Shown one piece after another: positions 26,209 to 27,389 of a stretch of 64,000 nucleotides of DNA (position 1 is the stretch's first letter; each line of letters opens with the position of its first letter). This DNA comes from Sphingobacteriales bacterium (lineage in GTDB: Bacteria > Bacteroidota > Bacteroidia > Chitinophagales > LD1), in contig JADFDM010000003.1 in assembly GCA_018262795.1 (NCBI GenBank), forward strand, positions 248,001-312,000, given 5' to 3'. A model generated the notes under the pieces. That model made no database searches. It worked only from the letters and a program-made list of their open reading frames with translations, and was not told the DNA's origin. The position numbers and the translations under genes are program-made.

Positions 26209-26238
26209 TTGTTTAAGCCGAAAAGGGTTTTAATTTCG
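26209..26238 (+). promoter_or_regulatory. Promoter of the YeeE/YedE operon leader
   Basis: TTG at 26209-26211, a 19-bp spacer and TAATTTCG at 26231-26238 (one mismatch to TAnnTTTG) form a good Bacteroidota promoter. Transcription would start around 26243-26245, which is exactly the ATG of the small ORF below, about 100 bp before the first transporter gene. Confidence 0.6.
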
Positions 26239-26242
26239 CTGC

Positions 26243-26281
26243 ATGAAGGAGATTTTTCGATCCCATTCCTGTTGTTGCTGA
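26243..26281 (+). CDS. Putative leaderless cysteine leader peptide (12 codons)
   Basis: ATG 26243 to TGA 26279-26281 encodes MKEIFRSHSCCC. Three consecutive Cys codons (TGT TGT TGC) come immediately before the stop. The ATG coincides with the predicted transcription start, so it would be translated without a leader. The next genes are YeeE/YedE-type sulfur-compound transporters. By analogy with polycysteine leader ORFs of mycobacteria, ribosome stalling when Cys-tRNA is low could control the genes downstream. The role is inference; the ORF and its composition are directly visible. Confidence 0.5.
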   Translation: MKEIFRSHSCCC

Positions 26282-26347
26282 CGCTATCTAAGCCTGCTTG
26301 TACGGGAGCAAAGCATTGATTTCTAAATATTTTAAACCTAATTTTTT

Positions 26348-26911
26348 ATGATAGATATGTTGCGTCACCCCTGGCACTGGAGTATTGCCGGTATTTTAAT
26401 CGGCCTTACGGTGCCTATTCTTTATGTAATTGGCAATAAGCCTTTCGGCATTTCTTCCTCATTTCGGCATGTATGTGCTGCTTGCATTCCTTCAGGGGCG
26501 GCTTATTTTAGTTACAACTGGAGGCACGAAATCTGGAATTTGTTTTTTATAGCGGGTATTATCATAGGCGGCTACATCGGTGCTACGGCTCTCAAAAATC
26601 CGGAACCGATAAAGATAGAAGCGAGCACTCAACAACAATTACAAAATTCGGGAGTTACAGACTTCGGCCAATTAGTGCCTACCGATATTTTCAGTTGGCA
26701 AGGGCTGATGACGGAGCGGGGATTTATCCTAATAGTTGTCGGAGGTTTCTTGGTGGGCTTTGGCACTCGCTATGCCGGAGGTTGCACTTCGGGGCATTCT
26801 ATTACCGGCCTTTCCAATTTGCAATTGTCGTCATTGGTGGCTACCATCTGTTTTATGGCCGGTGGCTTTCTGATGACCTGGCTGATTCTTCCAATTATTT
26901 TAAAACTGTAA
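26348..26911 (+). CDS. YeeE/YedE family transporter, first half
   Basis: 187 residues with four to five hydrophobic helices. The signature GTRYAGGCTSGHSITGLSNL carries the conserved Cys of YeeE (thiosulfate uptake) proteins; a second Cys pair lies at HVCAACIPSG. With the following gene it makes up the two halves found as one protein in thiosulfate transporter TsuA/YeeE. The likely role is import of thiosulfate or another sulfane-sulfur compound. It is first in a two-gene operon, with the cysteine leader ORF ending 66 bp upstream. Confidence 0.85.
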   Translation: MIDMLRHPWHWSIAGILIGLTVPILYVIGNKPFGISSSFRHVCAACIPSGAAYFSYNWRHEIWNLFFIAGIIIGGYIGATALKNPEPIKIEASTQQQLQNSGVTDFGQLVPTDIFSWQGLMTERGFILIVVGGFLVGFGTRYAGGCTSGHSITGLSNLQLSSLVATICFMAGGFLMTWLILPIILKL

Positions 26912-26921
26912 TCCAAAACTT

Positions 26922-27389
26922 ATGAAAAATATAAATGAAGAAGAAGGAGCCAATCACCAGAAAACGGGCGAGAGTTTTATTGCTAACCTGAAGTATGTTT
27001 TGGTAGGCGTGTTTTTCGGAATCGTATTTGTGAAAGCGGAGATTATTTCGTGGTTCCGTATTCAGGAAATGTTTCGACTCACTTCCTTTCACATGTACGG
27101 AGTGATTGGAACCGCTGTGGTAGTAGCCACCCTTTCTACCCTGCTGATGAAGAAGTTTAAGGTGAAAACATTACAAGGGGAAGAGGTGATTTACAGTGTG
27201 CGTCCTTTAGATAAAGGCAATGTGATTGGCGGTTTGCTTTTCGGTCTCGGCTGGGCTATGACCGGTGCCTGTCCGGGGCCTCTTTACGGATTAGTGGGAA
27301 GTGGCTTTCCGGTTTTCTTGGCAGCTATTGCTTCTGCCATTGCCGGTACTTATGCCTATGGTTTGTTGCGCGACAAGTTGCCACATTAG
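26922..27389 (+). CDS. YeeE/YedE family transporter, second half (DUF6691-like)
   Basis: 155 residues: a charged N terminus, then four helices with the family motif LGWAMTGACPGPLYGLVGSG, whose Cys is the conserved substrate-relay position. It starts 10 bp after the first half ends, and pairs of this type are usually expressed together. The stop codon overlaps by 4 bp the end of the convergent DUF5686 gene. Confidence 0.85.
   Translation: MKNINEEEGANHQKTGESFIANLKYVLVGVFFGIVFVKAEIISWFRIQEMFRLTSFHMYGVIGTAVVVATLSTLLMKKFKVKTLQGEEVIYSVRPLDKGNVIGGLLFGLGWAMTGACPGPLYGLVGSGFPVFLAAIASAIAGTYAYGLLRDKLPH

Follow-up and report, generated by a model that had tools for sequence, protein, structure and literature searches.

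A predicted leaderless cysteine leader peptide before a YeeE/YedE-type sulfur-transport operon, with related leaders before cysteine-pathway genes of Bacteroidota

The window analysed here is the whole stretch of 64,000 nt from Sphingobacteriales bacterium GCA_018262795.1 (contig JADFDM010000003.1, positions 248,001 to 312,000, forward strand). A short ORF of 12 codons, M-K-E-I-F-R-S-H-S-C-C-C followed by TGA, lies upstream of two half-transporter genes, the first of which is called yeeE below. Both ORFs of the pair exceed the PF04143 gathering score. Judged by these family matches, the pair is probably a YeeE/YedE-type sulfur importer with thiosulfate as a putative substrate; YeeE of E. coli imports thiosulfate (PMC11073785). 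The features of the locus are as follows.

26209-26211, + strand: TTG where the -33 element is expected, read from the sequence (TTTG motif from PMC7366714); weak alone
26231-26238, + strand: -7 box TAATTTCG (consensus TAnnTTTG), with the 4-nt spacing kept in 4/4 yeeE leaders
26243-26281, + strand: leader ORF MKEIFRSHSCCC, predicted leaderless, stop TGA at 26279-26281; conserved in G001, G009 and G016, with a coding signature and the chance rates given below
26270-26278, + strand: Cys codons TGT TGT TGC, the presumed sensor; the run directly 5' of the stop is kept in 4/4 leaders (C-S-C in G016)
26279-26289, + strand: stop-proximal segment TGACGCTATCT, which by duplex prediction can pair with the yeeE start
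26282-26347, + strand: intercistronic stretch of 66 nt, without an intrinsic terminator in the terminator check
26348-26911, + strand: first half-transporter, Sulf_transp PF04143, 187 aa (73 bits, cut-off 27)
26353-26367, + strand: yeeE codons AGATA...GCGTCA, the hypothetical partner of TGACGCTATCT by duplex prediction
26922-27389, + strand: second half-transporter, Sulf_transp PF04143 / DUF6691, 155 aa (37.8 and 33.8 bits, cut-offs 27)

The gap between the TTG and the -7 box is 19 nt as read directly from the sequence. The box departs once from the consensus (C for T), and the four nucleotides CTGC separate it from the leader ATG at 26243. The -33 TTTG motif is known from Bacteroides promoters (PMC7366714), and the available part of a flavobacterial study places the -7 box TAnnTTTG at -12 to -5 (PMC9723704). 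With four bases between box and ATG, transcription is predicted to start at 26243, the A of the ATG itself. The promoter-like elements, the ATG, the Cys-ending ORF and its 66-nt distance from the YeeE/YedE pair are present as a sequence-only reading of this DNA had described them. Its proposal that the ATG coincides with the transcription start agrees with the flavobacterial -7 geometry, and its statement that no strong intrinsic terminator follows the ORF holds for 26282-26347.

The frequency of such an ORF by chance was estimated from the 185-nt intergenic stretch. Mononucleotide shuffling produced a short ATG ORF with CCC in 86 of 100,000 sequences, and first-order Markov simulation did so in 37 of 100,000. 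When a -7 box 3-7 nt ahead of the ATG was also required, the counts fell to 0 and 1 per 100,000, respectively. Searched on both strands, the 64-kb window contains four CCC-bearing ORFs that start with ATG and do not exceed 40 aa, and only the leader ORF has such a box.

A yeeE match was found in 34 of 60 relatives, and in 14 of 18 genomes within the genus when the own genome is counted. The 113 yeeE loci were reduced to 107 distinct ones (L001-L006 were dropped as repeats of L084, L086, L087 and L092). The Cys leader is present at 4/107 of them, all in the genus of the window: in the window itself (G000, MKEIFRSHSCCC) and before the same gene in three of the 17 other genus genomes (G001, MKEIYLSHSCCCC; G009, MKRINLIYSCCCC; G016, MKEIYISNSCSC). 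All four leaders carry TA-N2-TT(T/C)G, exactly 4 nt and then ATG, all four short ORFs hold the Cys run (C-S-C in G016), and their peptides have a similar MKEI/MKRI start and SC motif. The other 103 yeeE upstreams showed no CC-bearing short ORF beside a -7 box, with non-AUG starts allowed. In the 18 genus genomes, model R1 gave no strong match to the yeeE leader beyond the four, which scored 43-47 bits; the next match had 19 bits. Amino acids are conserved against random substitution with P = 5e-5 (G000/G001), 0.0051 (G000/G016) and 0.094 (G000/G009), and with P = 0.0061 (G001/G009), 0.0016 (G001/G016) and 0.074 (G009/G016). Codon change is therefore coding-like, where 5e-5 is the best of six pairs and 2/6 pairs are not significant alone. 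On the yeeE tree, G001, G009 and G016 fall in one clade and G000 branches apart, and the presence of the leader costs two changes. On the conservation of the ORF, the Cys run and the promoter, a point that the sequence-only reading had raised, the comparison supports that reading, as three further genomes of the genus keep all of them with coding-like change, with the qualification that the other 103 yeeE loci lack the leader.

In five genus genomes (G006, G010, G011, G012 and G013), a near-palindromic box, TCTACTAAATTGATAGA, occurs with 0-2 mismatches, starting 16-19 nt before the gene. From its form it looks like an operator-like box of a putative regulator. The four leader genomes contain nothing nearer to it than 7 mismatches, and G007 (5 mismatches), G008 and G003 (6 each) show neither leader nor box clearly. 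Before this operon, the leader peptide and the operator-like box appear to replace one another. Among the individual loci, TCTACTAAATTGATAGA was seen upstream of yeeE genes lacking the leaderless peptide at L086, L087, L090, L092, L093 and L007.

Beyond the locus, no other Cys leader was found in the own genome, where the stronger R3 matches were read, and by eye none precedes its cysteine synthase or its cysK/CBS-like genes. An own-genome R3 match that outscored the window leader, C16 (E 0.0015 against 0.013), was rejected as an ordinary Leu-rich signal-peptide start. No serine acetyltransferase of the own genome exceeds the family cut-off (best 43.7 against 210.65 bits), and no CysE match was obtained at E<=1e-40; a cysteine synthase is encoded despite this. 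The CysE of relatives likewise scores under the cut-off of 210.65 (152.8 bits). Rho is encoded in the own genome.

A weak R1 match in G017 revealed a distinct leader, MKFIQIICCCCCSPCKGE, before a serine acetyltransferase gene (best NCBIfam match cysE, 152.8 bits, under the cut-off of 210.65). Of the 30 cysE loci read, 22 carry a poly-Cys ORF that adjoins a -7 box or lies within a few bases of it. All 22 are within the 24 loci of the window's family, where the other two are L150, at a contig end, and L152; none of the 6 cysE loci from other families has a poly-Cys leader. L150 and L166 (run of N) were left out of the cysE analyses, and L156 and L157 out of alignment A4. An intrinsic terminator follows the leader in the 21 analysed cases. 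Each of these 21 leaders contains, within the ORF, an element that begins 6-20 nt past the Cys run and could base-pair with the 5' arm of the terminator; this pairing beats 95% of shuffles in 12/21. The arm varies by group (CCCTTCG, CCCTTCAG, CCCTGTG), and the pairing element varies along with it.

Model R2, built from the 21 cysE leaders, matched 95/298 genomes of the order at E<=0.01. It gave about 120 places, and the 90 rows read cover these apart from the 22 leaders of cysE and some ten weak ones. By rule, 51 of the 90 rows are Cys leaders (50/89 places, one place having been entered twice); 40 of the 51 start with ATG, and 18 of those are 4 nt from the box. Some uncounted rows hold Cys runs in an ORF without a placeable start (e.g. 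L224, L237, L251). The downstream genes are sulfite/nitrite-reductase-like (17 rows, 13 of them Cys leaders by rule), cysteine synthase (16), peroxiredoxin (9), homocysteine synthase/cystathionine synthase type (5) and PAPS reductase (3), where the names come from one or two representative fragments. Those for peroxiredoxin and PAPS reductase exceed their NCBIfam cut-offs, and several of the others fall short. The Cys leaders of the order are leaderless or near-leaderless by prediction and mostly have an intrinsic terminator. In the wider phylum, R2 matched 12/395 genomes at E<=0.001 with two clear Cys leaders, L320 before a peroxiredoxin and L326 before a cysteine-synthase-like gene; the other matches resemble Ile/Val or Trp leaders or are ambiguous. 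The reach of R2 outside its family is limited because it was trained on one family.

Several further observations were made among the R2 matches. At L202, L208, L222, L224 and L229, matches are paired in tandem before one gene, which suggests two attenuators in series. Cys leaders stand upstream of peroxiredoxin at L228, L230, L233, L236, L250, L278 and L320. At L239, L252, L269, L273 and L282, a Cys-run ORF follows the -7 box but no ATG stands where one would be expected, so a leaderless ATT, ATC or ATA start is possible there, as is a misplaced box. Leaders of the same build carry Tyr runs before phenylalanine 4-monooxygenase (L207, L210, L211 and L212, three of them in the window's genus), are Phe/Tyr-rich before prephenate dehydratase (L209, L245, L268, L279), or carry Trp runs before anthranilate synthase component I (L258, L286).

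Leaders more similar to that of the window came from R3, which matched 37/298 genomes at E<=5e-4. It yielded Cys-ending leaders such as MKIFYNTYCCCC, MKRIFNSCCC and MKKIFHTCCCSCCC, and the gene after them matches cysteine-tRNA ligase TIGR00435 (~100 bits from a 100-aa fragment). The cysS upstreams comprised 92 regions from one other family of the order, the gene being found in 124/127 genomes searched. An ORF with CC or C.C was present in 39/92 regions, and 25 passed the filter for a terminal-Cys leader, most of them without a terminator by eye. In these 25 leaders, the last Cys codons and the stop are predicted to pair with the bases right after them with a mean of -6.17 kcal/mol against -2.16 kcal/mol for shuffles (p<0.05 in 10/25). 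The same pairing gave -5.05 against -1.46 kcal/mol in the four yeeE leaders (p<0.05 in 3/4), and the window copy has no stop hairpin (pairing p 1.0). As controls, swapped partners gave a mean of -5.04 kcal/mol against -6.17 kcal/mol for the real cysS leaders, the next 22 nt gave -4.02 against -1.99 kcal/mol (p<0.05 in 7/25), and the ORF end of the cysE leaders gave -1.34 against -1.51 kcal/mol. A pairing tendency common to terminal-Cys leaders exists, and the hairpin controls are mixed. In many cysS regions (L361, L384, L445 and others, by eye), a second TAnnTTTG-like box lies 20-50 nt before the gene. Therefore, cysS may have a leader promoter plus a direct promoter.

The reading that we favour, at a probability of roughly 0.78, is that 26243-26281 is a leaderless cysteine leader-peptide gene that adjusts the YeeE/YedE-type operon to how much Cys-tRNA is available. 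This is the proposal of the sequence-only reading, and the related leaders before cysteine-pathway genes across the order support it. Stalling on the Cys codons is the natural reading because conservation falls on these codons and on their position at the predicted transcript start, and we infer with good support that cysteine is sensed through ribosome stalling. Ribosomes would begin on the 5'-terminal AUG. When Cys-tRNA is scarce, they would stall on the Cys codons just 5' of the stop and thereby shield the stop-proximal RNA. With ample Cys-tRNA, they would complete the ORF and dissociate, and the stop-proximal RNA, now exposed, would lead to the operon being turned down. The leader stands before a sulfur-import operon, and related bacteria have leaders of this kind before many genes of cysteine synthesis, so it probably gauges the cysteine supply before more sulfur is imported.

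The output step is the least certain part of the explanation. For this terminator-less type, we favour premature release of RNA polymerase after exposure of the stop region over blocked yeeE translation. The release would occur by way of Rho or of the weak hairpin of the Cys codons and stop with the following bases, predicted in 3/4 yeeE leaders with the window's excepted. An excess of C over G is typical of Rho sites. The C/G counts of the tail are 17/2 in G001 and 15/2 in G009, a strong skew reached by 2/103 control upstreams, and 10/5 in G016, a modest one; the window tail has no such skew (12/10). The window copy lacks both skew and stop hairpin, and thus the output seen in its relatives is not evident in it. 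Given a regulatory leader, a transcriptional output is tentatively placed ahead, at slightly less than an even chance; a translational output is possible and clearly less probable, and some other output takes the rest.

The other explanations differ in how much of this they would replace. Translational attenuation concerns the output step only: the freed TGACGCTATCT would pair with the yeeE start (AGATA...GCGTCA) and block translation, and a stalled ribosome would mask TGACGCTATCT and free yeeE. This mode is cited for mycobacteria in the available part of PMC13236596, and the terminal Cys codons without a terminator resemble the mycobacterial layout. The duplex in the window reaches -10.9 kcal/mol with a shuffle p of 0.0004, but the segment was picked after the pairing had been seen, and a test of the wider region gave p 0.083. 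Likewise, the leader against its own yeeE start region gave p 0.02 in G001 but 0.55 in G009 and 0.995 in G016. When masking by a stalled ribosome was simulated, the yeeE start was not predicted to become more accessible in any of the four leaders, and whole-leader folding showed no stable structure, none more stable than shuffles. We regard this output as unlikely.

A different objection is that the ORF is translated and conserved for the sake of its product, a short Cys-rich peptide that has a separate role (metal or redox) and does not act in cis. The similar MKEI/MKRI start and SC motif of the four leaders would fit such a peptide. However, the dissimilar Cys leaders before many cysteine-pathway genes share only the Cys run and the promoter spacing, and many are followed by a terminator whose pairing element lies in the ORF, so that this explanation appears very improbable. 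Even less credit is given to a chance ORF beside an ordinary promoter. The 103/107 yeeE loci without a leader are what it would predict, but four genomes, a fixed promoter spacing, the coding signature and shuffle rates below 0.1% speak against it. The leader-peptide gene responding to Cys-tRNA is retained as the preferred reading.

On a wider scale, we lean, by a small margin over even odds, towards leaderless leader peptides as a general amino-acid gauge here in Bacteroidota. Such a gauge would include a Cys regulon (cysE, cysteine synthase, PAPS reductase, sulfite reductase, homocysteine synthase, peroxiredoxin, cysS and sulfur import) and Tyr/Phe/Trp counterparts, and would come in two layouts. 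One combines a terminator with an antiterminator element that the ORF contains; the other has no terminator, and its switch would include the Cys codons and the stop. The window's operon would use the second where sister species have the operator-like box. The window leader looks like one member of an extensive attenuation system in these Bacteroidota that seems to have gone unreported. Flavobacteria are described in the available part of PMC9723704 as lacking Shine-Dalgarno sequences, with only a few percent of mRNAs leaderless. This raises the question of how translation-coupled attenuators operate in them, and leaderless leaders, found here before much of a cysteine regulon, are a simple answer. 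The finding supplies concrete candidate switches in relatives and would connect the cysteine supply to cysS and, through the peroxiredoxin leaders, to an oxidative-stress gene. The yeeE operon offers a natural case of apparent interchange between leader and operator-like box.

The sequence-only reading knew of no such attenuator in Bacteroidota, and this held in the literature searched, whose coverage excludes most subscription papers: no report of a Bacteroidota Cys leader was found. One source reports hints that leader peptides attenuate amino-acid operons in F. psychrophilum, a flavobacterium (PMC9723704), and another mentions leader-like short ORFs in B. thetaiotaomicron (PMC7366714). The cysS leader of Rhodobacterales, uORFC-8-2 (PMC8632094), likewise has Cys codons in a short ORF upstream of cysteine-tRNA ligase. 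As far as that source was available, it has two tandem Cys codons at positions 14-15 and a terminator, whereas the cysS leaders described here end in longer Cys runs. Terminator-less Cys leaders have been predicted in Actinobacteria, with Cys-codon runs near the stop, no conserved terminator and Rho as the suggested factor in the part available (PMC1262725); these features are shared with the window leader. The actinobacterial leaders precede cys operons and cbs, whereas that of the window precedes a sulfur transporter and is in Bacteroidota. Cys-rich leaderless ORFs of mycobacteria are given as candidates in the available part of PMC4633059.

With classical ribosome-mediated attenuators (Phe and Trp leaders; RF01859), the cysE-type relatives share the two-way pairing logic, and two of them match RF01859 weakly (35.7 and 34 bits, gathering 55). 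An Rfam search of 17 loci gave only a tRNA at gathering score. Unlike the classical attenuators, the Bacteroidota leaders are predicted to be leaderless, and the window copy has neither a terminator nor an Rfam match.

The leaderless polycysteine attenuators of mycobacteria, which Canestrari et al. 2020 reportedly tested, are also comparable. They differ from the window leader in phylum, promoter and an unrelated peptide. Most leaders of the Bacteroidota relatives (cysE, cysK and others) have an intrinsic terminator, whereas none is reported for mycobacteria in the available parts of the sources; in this respect the window copy agrees with the mycobacterial attenuators. It also shares with them the ATG at the transcript start (predicted here), the Cys cluster ending a short ORF, and sulfur or cysteine genes downstream.
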